From a bacterium (GTDB lineage: Bacteria > Planctomycetota > Planctomycetia > Planctomycetales > Planctomycetaceae): a stretch of DNA of 64,000 bases. The stretch lies in assembly GCA_016125225.1 (NCBI GenBank), contig WGME01000007.1, forward strand, positions 1 to 64,000, written 5' to 3'. Under the pieces are notes generated by a model. That model did not search any database, had not been told where the DNA came from, and was given only the letters and a program-made list of their open reading frames with translations. The translations under genes were made by a program, and so were the position numbers. Positions within the stretch are counted from its first letter, which is position 1, and every line of letters starts with the position of its first letter. Shown piece by piece: positions 1,984-13,371 of this stretch.

Positions 1984-4900
1984 ATGACACGCATGCGTCT
2001 TACTTCGCTCATGGCCCTCGTTTTCTGTGGCCTTGTGTCACAAAGCCCGGCCCAATCTTCTACCGAAGCCAGCGTCGCCGGACTGCGATTGCCTGTCGAT
2101 CGGAGTTCTCAGGAACGCTATCAAACGGCTCTGAGAGCATTGGAGCAGGGCCAAATGGCGGAAGCGCTCGTGTGGCTTGAACGTTTGCGGAATGATGCCT
2201 TGGTCGCCACCACAGATGGTGCCGTCGCGGGGAATGTTTTGGCGGAACGGCTGATTGAGCAGGCGACTCCTACTCAACAGACGTTGTTACGGACCGGCAG
2301 CGACACTCAAGCACAACAGGTCTGGAACGACTGGCAAGCATCTCCTTCACTGGATGGCCTGAAAGCGTATCTCTGGCGGTACGGATCGACGGAAGCAGGA
2401 GTTCGCGCCTGGTGCCGTCTCGGTGCCTGGCTGATGGATGAGCGGGAGTTTCAGCAGGCAGAAATGGTGTGGCAACATGTCCTGCGACATCCTCGAGGCG
2501 GACAATCTGCAAAGGATCTTGCCGACCGTTGCCTGCAAGCATGTCAGATGGCGATTACTACGCAGGCCGAACCATCTGTGGGCAAGAACATACCCACTGC
2601 GGAACTCACTCGCCCGGGCTTGCGTCCCTTCAGTGAGCATTCGCTGAGTTTGCCGCCTCTCTTGCAGGATTCCTGGCGGAACTGGCTCAGTGAAATGGAA
2701 GCGCAAGGGACCGTTCCCTGGTCCGCGGCGCAGCCACTCATTGTGGGCAACCGAGTCATCGTTCGGCACAGCCTGGGGTATGCGGTGCTCGATGGAACAT
2801 CTCTGAAACCCCTCTGGCAGTTGTCGCTGGAAAACTGGGACTGGCTCCAGAATAACCCGGGTTATCTGGAGAATAACGGGTTCCGCCAAACCCTCTTCGA
2901 CCAGTTTGGCCGGAAACGGCTGAGTGATGGATTGATGCATGGTGCCAGCTCAGACGGACGGCAGTTGTTTGTCATTCTGCCGCGGAAGGAATCGCTGGAG
3001 CAGAGCACTCCTTTGGGGGCCTTTCCGAATCAGCAGGCTCGCGATGGGCAACTGGCTCCCTTGAATTATCTGGCCGCTTACGACCTGTCCACGGGGCAGC
3101 TCAATTGGCGTGTGGGAGGGGAATCGGCTGGCCCGACCTATCCCTTCGGCGATGTCTATTTCTGTAGTTTGCCTTGCGTCGTGGATGACCTTGCCTTTGT
3201 TCTGGGGCAACAGAAAACGGAGTTGCTGCTGTTTGCGATTCGCATCAAGCATGGCGATCTGGTGTGGAAGTTAACGCTCGGCGATGCACCTCGTACGTTG
3301 GCAGCTGACCCGGCTCGGCAACGCATCAACTGCCAGCCAACATGGCATGACGGGTTACTGTATTGCCCGACCGCAACAGGGGCCATGTTTGCCATTAACG
3401 TCGTGACCCAATCGGTCGATTGGGTCTATCGATATGAGTTGTCATCGCGTGAACGGGTACAAGCGGGACGGACCGAAAATACGTCGTTTCTGCGCGATGA
3501 CTGGTGGACCGGTTGGAAGCGACCGCAGCTTCAATTTCAAGGGGCTGTTGCCGTACTGACGTCTCCGGAATCCGACGAACTACATGGCATCGAAGCACAC
3601 TCGGGGCGTCTGCTCTGGAAGCAACCGCGTGGCCAGGGACTCGTGACATTCCCGGGGCTGGCGGGCCAGATTCTCGTGCAGGAGAAGTCGGCTGTCCGTG
3701 CGTATGACTGCCTCACGGGTCAACAGACCTGGCGAACCGTGCTCGATGAGTTTCTCGGTCATGGGGCCATTGTCGGCGAGTCGATCGTTTTGCCGATCAA
3801 AGAAGGGGCTTGCCAGGCAGTCCGTTTACAAGATGGTGTGGCCCTGGCCGTTGATTGGCCGGGGCGGGACCTGGGCCATCTGCAGCCGTTTGGTAAGTAC
3901 TGGCTGTCGACCTCATTCGACGCGCTGACGCTCTGGCCCGATATGACAGAAGATGAACCCGCCGCCGTTGCCAAAACCACGGACTCAACAGAGAAACCGT
4001 GGGACACCGCTTGCCGGCAGTTCTCACTCGGCCAATGGGCCGCGGCCTCAAAAACATTGAGTGGACAAAACGCAATCGATGCTGCGGAGCTTTCCCGGCT
4101 GATGGCCCGCGAACATCTTCGCCAGCAGACCACACAACATCAGACACTGCCCACCGGCAGTCATGCCGTGACAGAGCCGGCGATTCAGATGTTGGAAGAC
4201 CAACTGATGGAGGCCCAGAACCTATTGATTCAAGGTCGTCAGGACGAGGCCGTATCGCTGCTGTTACAAACGATTCAGTCGGCCCCTCGGCGTGGTGCGA
4301 TTCGGTTCGCGGGGCCGCAACGCTGGGTGCGTCCCGACCTCGCGGCCGTCGGGCTTTTGACTTCGCTCTGGGAACAAACGGGGCGGGCTAGTGGTTCCGT
4401 CGAACAACAACTGAAGCAACATTGGCAAAAGTCCGCTGCCAGTTCCGATCCCTTTGCCCTTCCGAAACTGGTCGACACATGCCAGCCCATGGCTTGGACC
4501 GATGAGCTTCTGGTGGCTGGGGGAGATGCGGCCTTTCTCGGGCAGCCCTTGCAGGCCCGCGAGTTGCGGTTGCTGAAGGCGGCTCAAACCGTGTCTGCAC
4601 CCGAGAACGTTGCCATCTGGGATGAACTGGTCCGTCAGATGCAACAGGCAGGATTCGAGCAGGACGCCGCAGACTATCGACGAGTGGCCCATCCAAAAAC
4701 TGCAATGCTTAGCCAACGGACTTGGCCGGAGCGACCGGTCGAGATTGAGCGCAAAAAGGAAAAGAACGACAATGTCCATTACTTCCCTGTTCCGTTGGAT
4801 CTGTCGTCGACCCCGTTTTTCGATCGTCTGGATGTCTCCATTGAACGCATGGGACGCCGGGTGCGGTTGGCGGGGGCTGGTCTGGCGGGGAGTTGGGAAA

Positions 4901-6141
4901 TCGCTTTGCCGCCTTCACCCTCGCCCTTTCGTCATTTGCAGCAACATGTGAATGGCTGGGGCCGTGGCCGCGTGCTGGTTCTGCGGGTGGGGTTTGAACT
5001 TTTTGGCCTCGCCCCGGTGGACGATCGCGGAGACCCGGCCGCCAAGGTGCTTTGGCATCTGGACTGCTTGAGTGGCACGACATTAAGCCCCGACCAACTG
5101 CGTCTCGATGTCATCCCCGCGGTGCCGGGTATTCGTGACGAAGAGTACCGTGTGATCGATCCCTTCGGCCGCGTGGTAGCCCAGGTGGGGCCGGTCTGTC
5201 CCGACTATCTTTGTTACACCGATAAAGGGCAATTGATTTCGATCGATCTTGCCACCGGCCTGCGTCGCTGGGTTCGTTCCGATCTTGACCCCGGCACAAC
5301 GGTGACAGGCAATGGCGAATACGTCTTCCTCTGTACGCCCGCTCTGGAACGCATCGAATGCCTGCGTGCTTGCGACGGGTCTACTTTGTCGGTTTCAAAA
5401 TTCTCGCTCGACTTGAGTCACACCCTGCGGCTGTCCGATGGCCTGATCTGGACTTTATCATCCACCCAACCGGCCAAGCTGAGTTGTCAGCGATTGTTGG
5501 ATCAGCAGGTCGTGTGGGAACAGCACCTTTCGCTCGGTTCCGCCGTGGCATTCCTCGATGACCAGCATCTCGCCTGGATAGAAACCAATGGCAACCTGAC
5601 GATTCTTGATGGTGACCTTGGCACACAACGGGCCACATTATCTCTACGAGATGTTCCCGCCGATATGGATCGTGTGGTGGCGTCGCGTGATGGTGACCTG
5701 TGGTTTCTGGCGGTTTCAACACGTGTCCCGCAACAGGCGGGGCTGCAGTTGCAGCAGTTGCGGAGTGGTTATCGTGCGGCGTTCATGACCGGCACTCTGG
5801 CCGCGATCGACCGCAATGCCCCCCGTGTTCTCTGGCAACGCACGCTCGATCGGGAACCCGTCGCAGCCGATCAACCGCGAGCCGTTCCGGTATTAATCCA
5901 GAACTATAAGTTGCCGTCACCCGATCTGCAGGCCGGGCAGATGACCGATGGACAAGTCCGGCTGATCGATAAGTATTCGGGGGCCGTGCTGTTCGATCAC
6001 CGCAGTCCCGACTTGCTGGGTTACGCTGCGCTCACGGCCGATCGTCATCGCGGTGTCATTCATCTGGCCCTGCAACATGAGACGGTGCAACTGTGGTATG
6101 CCCCACGCCCACCGGCTCCGGCCTTGCCTGACGAACCGTAA
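1984..6141 (+). CDS. Large secreted PQQ/BamB-like beta-propeller protein
   Basis: A 1385-residue protein with a Sec signal peptide (about residues 1-25, cleavage near SPAQS) and a good SD (AGAGGGAAAGA) just before the ATG. Residues about 35-200 look helical, TPR-like. From about 240 to 650 there are repeated PQQ/WD-like blades with the pattern A-x-D-x-x-T-G-x-x-x-W (for example AYDLSTGQLNW, IEAHSGRLLW, AYDCLTGQQTW). A helical linker (about 670-920) follows, then a second blade set (about 950-1370; SIDLATGLRRW, AIDRNAPRVLW). It is presumably a periplasmic or outer-membrane-associated scaffold rather than a quinoprotein enzyme, because no dehydrogenase active site or Cys-Cys pair was seen. It converges on smc with a 23-bp gap. 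The function is unknown; similar giant propellers are frequent in planctomycetes. Confidence 0.75.
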   Translation: MTRMRLTSLMALVFCGLVSQSPAQSSTEASVAGLRLPVDRSSQERYQTALRALEQGQMAEALVWLERLRNDALVATTDGAVAGNVLAERLIEQATPTQQTLLRTGSDTQAQQVWNDWQASPSLDGLKAYLWRYGSTEAGVRAWCRLGAWLMDEREFQQAEMVWQHVLRHPRGGQSAKDLADRCLQACQMAITTQAEPSVGKNIPTAELTRPGLRPFSEHSLSLPPLLQDSWRNWLSEMEAQGTVPWSAAQPLIVGNRVIVRHSLGYAVLDGTSLKPLWQLSLENWDWLQNNPGYLENNGFRQTLFDQFGRKRLSDGLMHGASSDGRQLFVILPRKESLEQSTPLGAFPNQQARDGQLAPLNYLAAYDLSTGQLNWRVGGESAGPTYPFGDVYFCSLPCVVDDLAFVLGQQKTELLLFAIRIKHGDLVWKLTLGDAPRTLAADPARQRINCQPTWHDGLLYCPTATGAMFAINVVTQSVDWVYRYELSSRERVQAGRTENTSFLRDDWWTGWKRPQLQFQGAVAVLTSPESDELHGIEAHSGRLLWKQPRGQGLVTFPGLAGQILVQEKSAVRAYDCLTGQQTWRTVLDEFLGHGAIVGESIVLPIKEGACQAVRLQDGVALAVDWPGRDLGHLQPFGKYWLSTSFDALTLWPDMTEDEPAAVAKTTDSTEKPWDTACRQFSLGQWAAASKTLSGQNAIDAAELSRLMAREHLRQQTTQHQTLPTGSHAVTEPAIQMLEDQLMEAQNLLIQGRQDEAVSLLLQTIQSAPRRGAIRFAGPQRWVRPDLAAVGLLTSLWEQTGRASGSVEQQLKQHWQKSAASSDPFALPKLVDTCQPMAWTDELLVAGGDAAFLGQPLQARELRLLKAAQTVSAPENVAIWDELVRQMQQAGFEQDAADYRRVAHPKTAMLSQRTWPERPVEIERKKEKNDNVHYFPVPLDLSSTPFFDRLDVSIERMGRRVRLAGAGLAGSWEIALPPSPSPFRHLQQHVNGWGRGRVLVLRVGFELFGLAPVDDRGDPAAKVLWHLDCLSGTTLSPDQLRLDVIPAVPGIRDEEYRVIDPFGRVVAQVGPVCPDYLCYTDKGQLISIDLATGLRRWVRSDLDPGTTVTGNGEYVFLCTPALERIECLRACDGSTLSVSKFSLDLSHTLRLSDGLIWTLSSTQPAKLSCQRLLDQQVVWEQHLSLGSAVAFLDDQHLAWIETNGNLTILDGDLGTQRATLSLRDVPADMDRVVASRDGDLWFLAVSTRVPQQAGLQLQQLRSGYRAAFMTGTLAAIDRNAPRVLWQRTLDREPVAADQPRAVPVLIQNYKLPSPDLQAGQMTDGQVRLIDKYSGAVLFDHRSPDLLGYAALTADRHRGVIHLALQHETVQLWYAPRPPAPALPDEP

Positions 6142-6164: not shown

Positions 6165-9100
6165 TCATGCCGCAGCGGTTCGCCGGAAGTTGCCATCGTC
6201 GGTGATGTCATCAAACCGGACCGACATACGTTTCGACACTCCGGACTCTTCCATCGTGACACCATACAGCACATCCGCGACCAGCATGGATCGCTTGTGA
6301 TGGGTGATCATGATGAATTGCGTGGTGTTCTGGAATTCCCGTAACACGTTGGCAAAGCGGTCGACATTCGCCTCATCCAGTGCCGCATCGACTTCGTCCA
6401 AGATGCAGAACGGGCTGGGCTTGGCCTGGAAGATCGCCATGATCAAGGCGATCGCAGTCATCGTTTTTTCCCCGCCACTCAGCAGTGAGAGTCCACGCAA
6501 TTCCTTACCGGGAGGCCGCGCTGTAATTTCGATGCCACATTCCAGCATCTCTTCGGGGTCTTCCAGCAGGATATCGCCTTCTCCCCCGCCAAAGACTTTC
6601 CGGAACAGGTGCTGAAAATTCTTGCGGATGGTCTGAAACGTCTCGGCAAACATCCGCCGGCTTTCCTGATTCATGCGGCGAATGATGTCTTCCAAGGTCG
6701 CTTTGGCTTCCACCAGGTCCTGCAATTGCGTACTCAACTGCAGGAAGCGTTGTTCCAGTTGTTCAAGATCGTGCAGGCTGTCGGTGTTCACGCTCCCCAG
6801 CAATTTCAGCTTCCGCCGCACCCGCGCGACATGGGCCTCGATTTCTGGCCGAACATCCGTAAATCCTCGATCATCTTCCTGATGAGAGATGAGGTGCGGA
6901 TCGATCGGAATGGTATCCGGGGTTTCATCCGCCGTTGATCCCCCCTGTTCCTCGGCCGAGCGACTATGTGGTGAACCGGGGCGTGACTGCCGCCAGAGTT
7001 GCCAGGCCGACATGTCGGTTTCCGCCAGTTCCCCCAAAGAGACCTGGTACTCTTCCTGAATTCGTTCCGCGAGGGTTTCTAACGATTGACGCAGTTCGCG
7101 TGCACGAATCTCGTCGGCATGTTGACGATCCTGCAGTTCACGTCGTTCACGACGCAGCCGTTGTTCTTGCTCGACCAACCCAGCACGCTTCTGTCGCAAG
7201 GCATCGCTTGCCCGCTGACTCTGTTGCCGCTCCCATTGCAACGATTCGGAATCGACATAGTGTTCGCTCAGCAGAGCCCGCGAGTTGAGGATCTGCCGTA
7301 CAATTTGAGACTGTTTCTGCTCGGCTTCATTCAGGCGCTTCAGCCCTTCATCACGCTGAATCTTGCGTTGCTGCCTTTCATCAGCAAGCCGCTGCAATTC
7401 GGCCCGAGTTGACTTAACACGTTCCTGATGCTGCAAGAGATTAAGTCGCTTCGTCGATTTGCTTTGTTCCCATCCCAGAGCTTTGTCACGAGCGGCTGTC
7501 CAATCGGCTTCCGCCTGTTGCACATTCATTTCTGCGGTCGTGAGTCCCAACTGAACGGTTTCCAGATTGGCGAGCGCGGCTTGCTCAACTTCCTGCAAAC
7601 GCTCGGCTTCTGCATTCGCTGACTGACGCTGCCCGGATACCTGATCAACTTCCCGACGCGCCCGATCGACGGTCTGGTCTGCCTGCTTCCAGGCCGCCAT
7701 CGCTTCGGCTAATTCGTCGTTGAACGCGTCCAGTTGCTGCTTTTGCTGGTTGAGCGCCGCATCGGCGGCTTCTGCTTTCTGCTCCAAATCCAACGCGTCC
7801 GCTTCGCGCGTGGCCAGTTCTCGTTCCAGGCGAATCAAGTCGTTGCGAATTCGACGCAATTCGCTTTTGCGTGACAGCAACGAGGTTTCACTGCGGACGG
7901 TCCCGAACTGCAAAACGCCACAGGTATCAACCAGTTCCCCCTGCAAGGTCACAAACCGCAACGGCGTGCTGACCTTCAGCGAAAGTTCTACGGCCGTTGC
8001 TAAGTCGCGCACAATCCACGTGTCAGCAAGCAATGCCGCCGCGAGTCCCGTCACGCCATGTTCCGATGCGATCAGCCGATCCGCTCGCGTGACCACACCC
8101 GGAATGGTTGAGAGATCGACTGCTGCGGACGCCTGTGGCAAGAGGTGAAGCAACTGCGAACCTTGCCAGTGATCCGGGCAAGTTAGTTCTGAAAACTGCC
8201 TGGGAATTGCTACAAATCCAACGCGGCCCGTAAGCGTGACCAAGCCTTGCGCGAGATAATCGAGCAACGGCTGAAACTTGCTCAGCACGATCAATTGCGA
8301 ACGAGTTCCCAAGGCGACTTCGATCAAACCCGCGTGCTCCAGATCGACTTCCAGCAGGTCGGCGACACTGCCCAGAATGGTGTTCCAGGGCGCGTCCTGA
8401 GAATGCTTCGCGCGATGCAGCAATTCTTTCACGCCTAAACCGAGTCCGTCCTGCCGTAGTTCCAGATCTTCCAGCAGACTCCGTCGTGCCACGGCGGCGC
8501 TGCGGGCTTCTCGGAGTTCGGCAATCTGACGTCGCAGGCGCTCAAAATCACCGGCCAACGATTGTTGAACTTCCAGCCGTTCCCGATAGACAGTTTGCAA
8601 CTGATCAACATGCTGCTGGCGGATTTCGTACTCACGCAGCAAGGCGGTCCTGGTCTCTTCAGCACTCGCAAGTTCCGCCGTCAGATCTTGCCATTGAATC
8701 TCCAGACGCGACTGAGATTGTGCGAGCCCCGCTTGCTGTGCCTGAATGGCAATCAGATTCTGTTCGACCTGGCGACGTTGTTCGACGATGGCTGTCAATT
8801 CTTCGCGGCGCTGTTCGACGATGCGTTGGGCCGCCTGCACTTGCTCATGGGCGGCCAGCAGAAGCTCGTCCTGACTGTCGACCTGCAACTGTAGGGCGTG
8901 TTCGGCAGCCAGAACTTCCTGCAAACGCTCGGTCGCCTCTGCCATCTCGACCGCAATGCTGTGTTCTCGCTGCAGCAATTGCACTTGTTGCGGCCGCAAT
9001 CGCTGCAGTTCCGTATCGAGTTCGGCCAACCGAGATGATTGGAATTTCAGGCTGGCTTCCAGGCTCGCCAATTCTTCTCGATGCAATGACCAACGTCGCT

Positions 9101-9956
9101 CGACGCCACGGGCCTGTTGATCGATCTGCTGTAACTCCAGATCGAACGCGGCTTCGTGTGAATCGAAGTTCTGCTGCTCGGCACTCAAGGCTTCTAACCG
9201 AGCTGCGATGCCCGTCAACCGTCGATCGAGTTCCTGCAACTCGCCGTTGCGGTGACGGTAGTCATCCGCAGAAAGTCCCAACCACCACGTTTTCAGTTCG
9301 GTGCTGAGTTCGCGATATTTGACGGCCTTGGCCGCCTGCCCGCGAGTGGAATTCAGCCGGGCTTCCACTTCGTCGACAATGTCAGACAGCCGTTGCAGGT
9401 TTTGAGCGACGCGTTCGAGCTTTCGTTGAGCCTCAACACGACGCACGCGGAAACGGCTGATGCCGGCGGCTTCATCGAAAACATTCCGGCGTGCGGCGGG
9501 ATTCGTCTGCAGGATCTGATCGACACGGCCCTGCTCGATGATGCAGTATGCCGCATTCCCGGCCCCAGATCCCAGCAGTAAATCGCGCACATCCTTGAGA
9601 CGCGCGGGTTGTCGATTGATGAGATACTCGGCATCGCCACTGCGGTACAGCCGGCGGCCGATGACCACTTCGCTGTCATCAACCGGGAGAATCTTTTCGA
9701 CGTTATCGATCGTCAGAAAGGCTTCGGCGAAGGTACACGGCTTCCGTGATGACGACCCGTTAAAGATGACATCGGTCATCTCTTTGCCGCGGAGACTCTT
9801 GGCACTTTGATCGCCAAGAATCCATTTGAGCGCATCAACAACGTTGCTCTTACCGCTGCCGTTCGGGCCAACCACACCAGTAATACCGGCGGAAAAGTCA
9901 AAGCGCACGCGGTCTGCGAAGCTCTTAAAGCCGTAGATCTCCAACGACTTGAGCAT
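6165..9956 (-). CDS. smc: Chromosome segregation protein SMC
   Basis: A 1263-residue SMC ATPase that forms the DNA-entrapping dimer of bacterial condensin. Walker A GPNGSGKS lies at 30-37, followed by N-terminal head motifs ([18 protein letters not shown]). Long heptad coiled coils run from about 165 to 500 and 660 to 1010, around a hinge at about 505-655. The C-terminal head has the signature LSGGEK (1159-1164) and Walker B ending DEVDAALD (from about 1186). The start at 9956 gives the canonical [13 protein letters not shown] with an AAGG ribosome-binding site; an in-frame upstream ATG would add 13 unconserved residues. A Ser/Pro/Glu-rich insert (about residues 1010-1040) sits late in the second coiled coil. 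The upstream same-strand neighbour is the FlgI-like gene, 95 bp away. scpA and scpB are not in the window. Confidence 0.95.
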
Positions 9957-10051
9957 CGCTCGACCTTCAGGCACCCGCTGACTGCAACGGGACAACTTGG
10001 AAGATGTTGCGGACCACCCGAGGCGGCATCCGCTTCTGCAACTTGATAACG

Positions 10052-11956
10052 CTATTCAGAACGAGACCGTTCCCAGAACTTCCAGAAGGGACGGGACTTT
10101 TCCTCGGTCTCTTCCGATTTGATGCTGGCCATACCATCGCGGCTGGCTGGGCGAGGTTTGTCTTCGGGTTCTTCATTCTGTCGCGGTTCATCGTTCCCCT
10201 CGAGTCGAGGGAAGATATTCGGCGACATGTGCTTCTGACCAACGGTGGCTTTGCGTGCCGGACCCTTCGCGGTTTCTGGACGGGTATAGACGCGGCCCGA
10301 TTCCGGCAAAGCGTCGGTTTCCAACTTCTCGGGAAGGTTTCGTTGTTGCGAAGCCTGTGCCAGCATGTTGACGACATCAGGATAGGTGGCACCGAGTTCA
10401 TCAACCTGCAGCAAGACTTCAGCGATGTTGAGCGAGACTTCTTTTCGCACATCGGGTTTGCCGGGAACAAACCGGGAGATGGAAATGGTCTCTGAACCGG
10501 GTTTCGCGGTCAGCATGATTTGTCGACCCGCGGAGAGAATGAGCGGCGGAACAAATTTCTGGTTTGCCCCAAACAGCACCACTTCGGGCCGGGACCGCAT
10601 CGTGCAGTGGACCAGTTCCGGTCCCTGAGTCGACAACACATGCAGGTACCACGCGGGAACTTTTTTCTCATCGGATTCGCTGGAATCGTCATCGAGACTG
10701 CGGATGCCCATCGGCATACCACGAATGAACGGGTCGTTCTTGTCGAGCGTCCACAAAGCACGGAAGGCGCCGTATCGAGTTTCTGGCAGCGGATCGCTCA
10801 TCAAGTCTCGCAAGGACAGATGCGACTGTGCATCGTCCAGGGTCGACATCGCCGCAAAGGCGAAGACGCGGAAGGCCCGCTCGTCTTTGGCCGATTCCGC
10901 CAGAGCGGGTAGCCCCGAGGCATCTTCCATATAGGCCAAGGCGGTTGCGGCGTGAAATTTGACTTCCAGCAGGGGCGACTTCAACGCCGTCTGCAACAGC
11001 GGTATCGCATCTTTGCCGATGGCTTCTAATTGCAAGGCGGCTCGCTCCGAGGTTTCCGGTGTCAGCAATTCGTCATGCAGTTTCTGCATCCGCACGCGTT
11101 GGCTGACGGTTGTTTCCCGGAAGGCGATACTGCGAATCACCTGCAGGTATCTTGGATAGTTGTCTTTGTAGCGCGGATGGACCGACAGTACGATCATCTG
11201 ATCGGTCTTGGCTTCCGCCATTGGCTTCTTGATGCCGTACTTATCGAAGTGGTGAAACCGACGCCCAATGGCATCGGCAATACGTGTGGAATTACGGATA
11301 CTGCGGAAATCACTTTGCAGGAAGATCGACAGTTCTCGCTCCTTGAGAACCTTGGCACCACCCAGGATGCGGCCGCGGCGGAGCAGCGGGTCGTCGTGCT
11401 CCAACTCCCGGCCGATGCCGGCAATCAACACCGGACCTTTGGCACGGGCATAAGGGTGCCCTTTGATGATGCCGCGTCCCGGGACAAAGGCCTGTTCGTG
11501 GAGTTCGGTTTCCATCAACCATCCGCCGGCCAGAGAAGACGCCCCTGCGGAATCGGGCAGCACGATTTCGACGTCGAGGTGCTCGCCGATGCTTAACAAC
11601 GGAGGCAAATAGGCCCGAACCAGAACCAATGCCGTATTCGGAGAACGCAGAATTTCGTTCGGATTGCGAACTTCTCGCCGCTTCATATCTTCCAGTAAAG
11701 CGGTCCGGTACATCGACGGCGCGGGATCGCCCCCCGTCCCGGACAAGCCAACCACCAACCCGACCCCTTCCAGCAGCACCGGACTGAGTCCGGCGAACGT
11801 GGTGTAGTCTCCGACGAGTGGGGTTTCCACTTCCGTACCGTATGACTCTGCGGCTGCAATTACGGTCACCGAAGGTGTGGACTTCCAGAGAAATCCGACA
11901 CTCGTCGCTAACAGGACCGCGACAAACACAGCACGTGTCGCAACTGGCGTTGTCAT
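10052..11956 (-). CDS. FlgI-like (flagellar P-ring homologue) protein with HEAT repeats
   Basis: A 634-residue exported protein with a hydrophobic signal or anchor segment (about 8-24). Residues 50-310 resemble the flagellar P-ring protein Flg[16 protein letters not shown] (64-78), a [18 protein letters not shown] segment (from 113), then [14 protein letters not shown] and a KGPVLIAG turn. Residues about 320-425 are HEAT-like alpha-alpha repeats ([26 protein letters not shown]), followed by a mixed region and a charged Pro/Glu/Lys tail. HEAT repeats are not part of flagellar FlgI, and no flagellar gene is nearby. It may be an envelope ring or scaffold protein rather than a flagellar part. ATG 11956 is preferred because the signal peptide then starts at once; ATG 11989 is possible. 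It probably shares a transcript with smc. Confidence 0.75.
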
Positions 11957-12221: not shown

Positions 12222-12263
12222 ACAAAAAAAACAGTGCCGTCTCCGATGTCGGAAACGGCACTG
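12222..12263 (-). terminator. Rho-independent terminator of the Cys-rich protein gene
   Basis: Read on the minus strand, CAGTGCCGT pairs with ACGGCACTG (12255-12263 with 12232-12240), and an inner TCCG/CGGA stem extends it. Eight T residues follow (A-run 12223-12230 on plus). It lies 38 bp after the stop at 12301. Confidence 0.85.
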
Positions 12264-12300
12264 CCTGATATGTCAGCGAACAATGATAGTTGATCAACGA

Positions 12301-12711
12301 TCAATCATCGTAATCCACAATCACGTGACCACGAGCCGAGAGGATCTCGACCTGATACTTGCCGAAGTCCATGATCAGCTTGTTGCCATTGCGCTTGCAC
12401 TTGGTTTCGTAGCACTCGCAAGGAGGCACGCAGACTTTCACGTACACGCACTTCGGAGCACAGCAGTTGCAGGGATCGTTGCACTTGCAGGGGTCTGCGA
12501 CCGCGACGATTTTTTCCACCGCACACGGGTGGATGTTCCGCAGGTCCTTGTACTTCACGCATTCGAACAGCGTGATCGGCTCCGACGTGGAATAGACAAT
12601 GTTGCCTTCCGGCATCGGGGCCAGGGGTTCCGGGGCTGGGGGCATCTGGGCATCTGCCACCACCGTCGTCAGGGCTAACACAGCCGCCGACATCCAAGCC
12701 AACAATTTCAT
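12301..12711 (-). CDS. Secreted cysteine-rich protein, function unknown
   Basis: A 136-residue protein. The start at 12711 is supported by AAGGAG nine bases upstream and by an immediate signal peptide (MKLLAWMSAAVLALTTVVADA). The mature chain has a Pro/Met-rich linker, a segment YSTSEPITLFECVKYKDLRNIHP, and then a dense run of Cys with patterns CxCxxxCxCC and CVPPCECYETKC, ending in a hydrophobic KYQVEILSARGHVIVDYD-type tail. The ten-plus cysteines suggest disulfide knotting or metal binding outside the cytoplasm. It has its own terminator and a 660-bp gene-free region upstream, so it is a stand-alone unit. I do not recognise a named family. Confidence 0.75.
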   Translation of the reverse strand: MKLLAWMSAAVLALTTVVADAQMPPAPEPLAPMPEGNIVYSTSEPITLFECVKYKDLRNIHPCAVEKIVAVADPCKCNDPCNCCAPKCVYVKVCVPPCECYETKCKRNGNKLIMDFGKYQVEILSARGHVIVDYDD

Positions 12712-13371
12712 GCGACACACTCCTTCAAAGCGACCAGAGAAACTGACCGTCGACGGCTTTCCCTGGTCTGAAATTTCATCCTGCGAAACACCCGTTCTGT
12801 CGTCGATGCTGGTCACAGTTGCGGGTTGGATTACACATCCCTGAAAAGATTCGTCCTATTTCGTTATCGAGCGGCAAAAACTGCCGATCGGTTCGCTGAT
12901 GTCCTCGAAATTCTGCCTACTAGAACTACTAGGAAAACCCTGCGGCTGCAAGTGACTACCGATAAAGTTTGTGAACACTTCCCAGTACGCATAAATTGAC
13001 AAAGCTGCTTTAACCGGTCTAGCCACCCAGCCACCCCAGATAGCAGCAATTCGCATGCCGTTTTCTGGTTTCTAAACGGTAGAAAAGTCGCGTGCGATAT
13101 GCCTTCGCTCCTTGCGTACCCAGATGCTGAGCGATAGCGTAGAACCTAGAATCTCACGATTCGAGAACCTCTGCGGTGTTCGATAAGGGCCTTATGCGTT
13201 GACCCTACAAATACTGCTCAGGGTGTCGGACTGGTTCGGCCGCGTGTATATCCGCTGAGCATCCTTGCGACGCTCGCCGGCTCACACAACCCGGGCCTTC
13301 GGCATCCACCTGAACTTTAAGGGTTCAGAACCTTAACGCCCAACGGCACATGTGGAGGTTTCTTTCTTATT
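12712..13371. other. 660-bp intergenic region between divergent genes
   Basis: No credible protein gene is seen. It must contain the divergent promoters for the Cys-rich protein (minus) and rarA (plus). Two small palindromic elements are visible: ATAAGG-G-CCTTAT (13183-13195) and CTGAAC-7-GTTCAG (13310-13328). No tRNA fold was recognised. It is unusually long for this window. Confidence 0.5.

Follow-up and report, generated by a model that had tools for sequence, protein, structure and literature searches.

FlgI is known as a part of the flagellum, where it assembles around the rod with FlgH as a ring of 26 subunits. The locus described here raises the question of what a FlgI-like protein with HEAT repeats does when its gene lies beside smc and away from the flagellar genes. 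This gene, which we call flgI-HEAT, occupies 10052..11956 on the minus strand of the window, the whole stretch of 64,000 nucleotides of planctomycete DNA that was analysed (C4:1-64000). The original prediction described a P-ring-like N-terminal half followed by HEAT repeats and a charged tail, called the pairing with smc odd, and proposed an envelope ring or scaffold that uses the FlgI fold for a non-flagellar job.

Results

The gene and its immediate surroundings

The reading frame encodes 634 amino acids, with its ATG at 11956, its stop codon at 10052-10054 and a GGAG 6 nt before the ATG, so the coordinates and the strand first assigned were right. Directly downstream on the same strand lies smc (6165..9995, minus strand; first in-frame ATG at 9956), whose identity, proposed earlier, was confirmed by a Pfam SMC_N match at 6e-70. 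We scanned for terminator-like hairpins by consensus only, which yielded four sites compared with a mean of 3.0 after shuffling. By far the longest stem, with 17 pairs and a T-run, is found upstream of flgI-HEAT at 12229..12266 (minus strand). A weak 6-pair site is located at 12004-11986, and the scan found none between flgI-HEAT and smc on this strand. Given the strong hairpin upstream and the lack of one between the two genes, the pair probably starts a transcription unit.

The 17-pair hairpin comes after a gene at 12301-12816 (minus strand), just upstream of flgI-HEAT, which encodes a 171-aa cysteine-rich protein with a hydrophobic stretch and without a match in Pfam or NCBIfam. Convergent with smc, positions 1984-6141 (plus strand) encode a protein of 1385 aa, in which three stretches have PQQ/BamB-like beta-propeller matches (PQQ_2).

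The predicted fold is a complete FlgI with a HEAT insert

In Pfam, residues 49-288 match FlgI (PF02119, profile positions 3-233 of 343) with 83 bits against a cut-off of 25.3, and residues 300-364 match HEAT_2 with 33.4 bits against a cut-off of 27.7, bearing out the P-ring-like N-terminal half and the HEAT repeats of the original prediction. Both families are present in 23/23 members of an alignment of diverse homologues (A1; window protein included, FlgI at E <= 0.01), and nine of these 23 also match HEAT_PBS. An AlphaFold2 model, built from a 78-sequence alignment with the window protein first, reaches a mean pLDDT of 87.7 and a pTM of 0.84, with most core blocks at 91-98. A Foldseek search of the PDB with this model put LP-ring FlgI chains in the first four places (E 1e-12 to 4e-12) and HEAT-like designs after them, and the comparison with P-ring structures that had been called for thus came out positive. 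VIA alignment to the FlgI chains 8z5n, 7bgl, 7nvg and 7cbl gave Z 15.8-16.6 and rmsd 8.4-8.8 over 197-207 residues, pairing residues 46-280/283 of the model with 20-248 of the FlgI chain. On the strength of the PF02119 match and these alignments, residues 46-283 (11108..11821, minus strand) are assigned to the OR and IRU domains.

The next segment, residues 284-405 (10742..11107, minus strand), is predicted to be a HEAT solenoid of eight helices, or about four repeats, as judged from HEAT_2 and the DSSP of the model. Its helices at 283-404 have pLDDT of about 96-98, and alphaRep/HEAT structures align with the region at Z about 8 (VIA). Compared alone with a flagellar FlgI profile, the HEAT region matches nothing (E 0.58). 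By the published FlgI domain borders (OR 1-11 and 160-230, IRU 12-159, IRL 231-346; PMC8298488), with mature residue 1 of that work taken as chain residue 20, the insertion point is the OR/IRL border.

Behind the solenoid, residues 406-560 (10277..10741, minus strand) comprise a linker and the putative IRL domain (core about 435-548), assigned by profile-profile comparison and predicted structure. In a single profile-profile comparison based on A1, residues 430-560 align with the last third of flagellar FlgI (251-355 of 356) at an E of 9e-8 and a probability of 94, and 0/200 column shuffles score as high (maximum 25.5 versus 53.8). The profile of close relatives (A3) gives much the same alignment, with a weaker match (E 6e-4, hhalign probability 29) whose score is reached by 0/200 shuffles (maximum 27.0 versus 31.3). 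Predicted on its own, the IRL piece has a pTM of 0.84, and its best VIA rows are FlgI 7cbl and 8z5n (Z 5.7 and 5.5, rmsd 2.5-3.0, 76 residues, chain 247-365); this structural match is modest, with the unrelated YkuJ tied at Z 5.5. When only this domain served as the Foldseek query, no match had an E below 0.001, and FlgI was absent among the 50 rows listed. In four genomes of one family (f5; G002, G034, G095, G172), the match to the HEAT-type profile ends at 423-428 of 536, short of IRL.

Taken by its predicted fold, the protein is therefore a complete three-domain FlgI (OR-IRU-IRL) with HEAT inserted. The IRL domain stands between HEAT and the charged tail, which makes HEAT an insert within the FlgI fold. 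The original prediction was correct that HEAT repeats and a charged tail are both present; its arrangement of HEAT fused behind a FlgI half at the C-terminus is ruled out, as IRL comes after HEAT. Compared with flagellar FlgI (PF02119; Salmonella LP ring 7cbl, 7bgl, 7nvg; also 8z5n), the order OR, IRU, IRL is the same, with the sequence and fold match clear for OR and IRU and supported for IRL, whereas flgI-HEAT carries a solenoid of about 120 residues at the OR/IRL border. Compared with HEAT_2 and PBS-lyase-type HEAT repeats (PF13646, PF03130), the helical solenoid of about four repeats is the same, but here it is embedded in an apparently exported ring-protein fold. The fraction of the commonest residue is 0.649 in HEAT and 0.622 in the FlgI part.

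The remaining residues, 561-634 (10055..10276, minus strand), form a predicted disordered tail, charged after about residue 560, whose pLDDT is no higher than about 50 from around residue 591 on; an aromatic/basic patch ([11 protein letters not shown]) lies close to the end of the tail. Across 78 homologues, aromatics make up 11.5% of the last 16 residues versus 2.8% of the preceding 44. We rejected this aromatic tail as a second membrane anchor, as only 25/78 homologues have three or more aromatics.

Export and probable lipid anchoring

Residues 1-45 (11822..11956, minus strand) are read as an export signal and linker; here and in the relatives, the calls of export signals and lipoboxes rest on patterns and on reading by eye. 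A heuristic finds a lipobox-like Cys after a hydrophobic N-terminus in 60/78 homologues, and of 30 sequences 22 have it by pattern and five more by eye. The other 18/78 are the window protein, which has a hydrophobic N-terminus without a lipobox, and its close relatives. The window protein and most of its Schlesneria-like relatives lack the lipobox, but their N-terminus still resembles a signal or, by eye, a twin-arginine signal. These features suggest that the protein is exported and, in most relatives, lipid-anchored. FlgH (PF02107), the L-ring lipoprotein, has a lipid anchor, as PMC1586193 mentions; the two would share the probable anchor and the expected place at the outer membrane. Their folds are unrelated, flgI-HEAT joining a P-ring fold to its probable anchor.

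The host genome has a separate flagellar flgI

One other FlgI, scoring 225 bits, is encoded in the host genome (6.35 Mb, 42 contigs). It lies at C16:144905-145885, directly downstream of FlgH (C16:145993-146484) and near rod proteins, and we take it as the flagellar copy; the true flgI whose existence had been left to be checked is thus present. FlgH, the flagellar FlgI, flagellins, rod/hook proteins (PF00460) and FlhA are encoded on contigs C8, C16, C27, C35 and C37, and none of FlgH, flagellin, rod/hook (PF00460) or FlhA has a match within C4:1-64000, in agreement with the earlier remark that flagellar genes lie elsewhere. The window protein falls far below the cut-offs of the NCBIfam FlgI models, scoring 74.8 bits where one requires 300 and 44.1 bits where the other requires 557.

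flgI-HEAT and smc are a conserved gene pair

We next compared the neighbourhoods of homologous genes, using the best 80 of 429 confirmed loci, which are all fairly close and were reached with two peptide patterns from close relatives, and 20 distant loci outside the window's family, drawn from 20 of the 29 genomes there that carry the gene. By tblastn, smc was found within the fetched flanks of 77/80 close and 17/20 distant loci, 94/100 in total; it was not found in three of each set, one of them being L123, where the sequence stops 180 bp past the gene. An smc ORF follows flgI-HEAT in 71/78 cases (the window plus the best 80 of 429, less three loci without a clustered HEAT-type ORF). In 71/71 measured pairs the two genes share a strand, with a median gap of 88 bp (range -37 to 457), and five of the seven cases without an smc ORF have <2.3 kb of sequence left. 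At the distant loci, 15 of 16 measured gaps span 22-292 bp and one 2,784 bp. The next most frequent neighbour family occurs at 14/80 (best 80 of 429) and 3/20 loci. Around 51 flagellar flgI loci, where the flanks are short, no smc was found. flgI-HEAT and smc are thus a conserved gene pair, and the oddity noted originally is a recurrent one; the two genes would probably be co-transcribed.

In the phylum sample, the HEAT type occurs in twelve families and appears vertically inherited

Searching 294 genomes of the phylum with the profile gave long HEAT-type matches (at least 238 bits, over >=369 of 536 profile positions) in 43 genomes, four of which read through a stop (G185, G261, G209, G157), and the gene in pieces in three more. 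The HEAT type is thereby present in 46/46 sampled genomes of 12 families, 21 in the window's class (host included) and 25 outside it. The other 248 genomes have no long match, their best being <=105 bits over <=249 positions. FtsZ_C was found in 6/294 genomes of the phylum (families f13, f40, f66, f77) and in 0 of the 46 with flgI-HEAT; given its near absence across the sample, asking whether the gene marks FtsZ-less lineages is uninformative.

We built a tree on the FlgI part only, by a quick search and with an arbitrary root, with 30 HEAT-type rows drawn from the 46 genomes and 51 flagellar rows, one flagellar gene being included twice. A branch with SH-aLRT 99 separates all HEAT types from the flagellar rows, and the 21 class-mates group together inside this clade (support 98), which suggests vertical descent of the HEAT-type gene. 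The flagellar FlgIs of the window's family fall into two distant groups (L001 and L212 apart from L056, L057, L059, L060 and L062), hinting that flagellar gene sets, unlike the HEAT type, were replaced or transferred.

Two further observations concern single records. The MAG records L129 and L136, titled Candidatus Kuenenia stuttgartiensis, carry a HEAT-type gene adjoining smc (45% and 40% identity); these titles may be wrong, because no long HEAT-type match was seen in family f44, which may be the anammox family. A class-mate genome (G181) has a third FlgI-like protein of 629 aa with a hydrophobic N-terminus (L213:7448-9337, minus strand), in which a FlgA/SAF-type segment, by eye, is fused to a FlgI domain and no HEAT is seen; smc is absent from the ORFs listed around it.

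The HEAT type is kept where flagellar proteins were not found

In five genomes of 97-99% completeness (G247, G257, G266, G220, G127), picked for their single FlgI match, this match is the HEAT type (PF02119 E 1e-24 to 2e-11), and no FlgH, flagellin or rod/hook N-terminal domain (Flg_bb_rod) was found. Five other genomes taken for comparison all have flagellins and rod proteins. Since the HEAT type is kept in these five near-complete genomes, it serves a non-flagellar job, and this part of the original prediction stands. A sixth such genome may be G055 (84% complete).

Three of the five (G247, G257, G266) keep one FlhA/SctV-family protein; the 177 genomes with an FHIPEP match include neither G127 nor G220. 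One FlhA/SctV kept where flagellin, rod and FlgH were not found suggests a separate type III-like secretion system in the three. Two FlhA/SctV-family matches each were seen in G087, G105, G137, G283, G121 and G205.

Gene order and residues agree with this separation from the flagellum. A tblastn search with the host FlgH found flgH at 0 of the 100 HEAT-type loci, the same query matching 35/51 flagellar flgI loci. In FlgI, the lysines K63 and K95 matter for assembling the P ring on the rod (PMC8298488). Both positions are basic in 4/78 and 0/23 HEAT types versus 14/31 planctomycete flagellar FlgIs (the 30 best-scoring and the host's), and the window protein has Pro106 and Ser140 there, as mapped by eye from the alignment. 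The flagellar proteins themselves lack a basic residue at K63 in 13/31 and at K95 in 10/31; with both basic in only 14/31, the positions discriminate weakly, and their loss is weak evidence against a functional flagellar FlgI. By its scores below the NCBIfam cut-offs, the few basic rod-contact positions, the lack of flgH found nearby and the retention where flagellar genes were not found, flgI-HEAT is a FlgI homologue and not a functional flagellar P-ring protein; the lipobox-like Cys of most members and the pairing with smc are further differences.

Discussion

We lean towards a non-flagellar, P-ring-like envelope annulus whose HEAT solenoids serve as docking surfaces and which is co-expressed with SMC. 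The protein would be an ancient paralogue of flagellar FlgI that probably arose once in a planctomycete ancestor and was then inherited vertically. After export, and lipid anchoring in most relatives, it would most likely assemble as a P-ring-like annulus at the peptidoglycan and outer membrane, with the HEAT solenoids radiating from or below the ring and docking partners that are neither FlgH nor the flagellar rod. In the LP ring, OR has been suggested to face the peptidoglycan, IRU and IRL make subunit contacts, and IRL contributes the subunit-subunit beta sheet of the P ring (PMC8298488); with OR, IRU and IRL all retained, an annulus at the peptidoglycan is the most economical reading. The ability to form a ring could nevertheless have been lost, because neither the rod nor FlgH is a known partner here. 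The ring and the envelope location of the original prediction keep the standing of a plausible proposal. A two-gene operon would bring co-expression with SMC, so the structure would probably be constitutive and linked to growth or the cell cycle. SMC is cytosolic and the flgI-HEAT protein apparently exported, and the gene pair may therefore reflect co-expression only; a direct link between the two proteins is the least certain part of our account.

The main rival is a scaffold without a ring, a monomeric or small-oligomeric lipoprotein of the outer membrane whose FlgI fold would act as a peptidoglycan adaptor while HEAT binds clients. The lipobox-like Cys of most homologues fits such a protein, conservation of HEAT is no lower than that of the FlgI part, as one would predict for a binding surface, and FlgI-OR resembles peptidoglycan-binding and secretin N3 domains (PMC8298488). 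All three ring-forming domains are kept, however, IRL included, and a mere peptidoglycan binder needs no IRU and IRL; we regard the scaffold as a serious but less likely explanation. That the protein adds a further ring or a cap to the flagellar motor of planctomycetes, as the FlgI homology and the flagellar genes of the host might suggest, is very improbable. This accessory role is already contradicted by the comparative data, as the gene is kept in the five near-complete genomes without canonical FlgI, FlgH, flagellin or rod found, and the FlgH query matched none of the HEAT-type loci, though it detected only about two-thirds of the flagellar ones. Slighter still is the chance that the protein is a substitute for the P ring in a non-flagellar type III secretion system: the three genomes that keep an FlhA/SctV-family protein would accommodate it, but the two that carry the gene without an FHIPEP match already weaken it, and the recurrent neighbour is smc, not secretion genes.

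A ring of the crateriform pits is tempting. In Planctomycetia, as described for P. limnophila, these pits hold the outer and inner membranes together and carry 12-nm fibres, being numerous outer-membrane complexes of which at least some touch the cytoplasmic membrane (PMC5394234). A widened P ring would be a plausible collar for them, and all 21 sampled genomes of the window's class have the gene; the available text of that paper names no pit proteins. The distribution weakens this idea to the point where we give it little credence, since 25 sampled genomes outside the class also have the gene and, among Phycisphaerae, the available text records pits as 'not observed' in one strain and 'no' in another, two being undetermined (PMC7783415).

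The pairing with smc invites two more proposals. HAWK proteins are eukaryotic and offer the analogue for a HEAT subunit of an SMC complex. HEAT repeats and the gene pair would suit such a cytosolic subunit, yet the N-terminal signal, the lipobox-like Cys in most homologues and the building of HEAT into a periplasmic ring fold make it extremely unlikely. Alternatively, a FlgI-HEAT ring might be the outer partner of a chromosome-envelope system, marking or holding a fixed site of the envelope, be it the pole, the bud neck or a membrane junction, at which SMC-organised chromosomes are anchored or passed, in bacteria of which nearly all lack FtsZ. We consider this idea speculative and rather improbable; if it were true, the smc pairing would be functional and not incidental.

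In the literature searched, as far as its text was available, we found no description of a HEAT-containing or non-flagellar planctomycete FlgI, and we found no report of smc as a gene partner of any FlgI. The available main text of the P. limnophila essentiality study does not mention FlgI, the P-ring or SMC (PMC10632474), nor do the available parts of the Gemmata pore paper mention FlgI or the P-ring (PMC5287468); PMC1586193 and PMC12758564, in the portions at hand, concern neither a HEAT-containing nor a non-flagellar planctomycete FlgI.

For annotation, the locus is a caution that a FlgI profile match alone does not imply a flagellum. For the phylum, it would represent a complete FlgI redesigned with a HEAT insert and passed on, apparently vertically, across twelve families. 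As the two genes stay together where other gene order is lost, a link between the envelope and SMC is raised in testable form. Hosts that have unusual membranes and mostly lack FtsZ may have an uncharacterised envelope structure, for which the flgI-HEAT product, preferred here as a P-ring-like annulus, is a concrete candidate.
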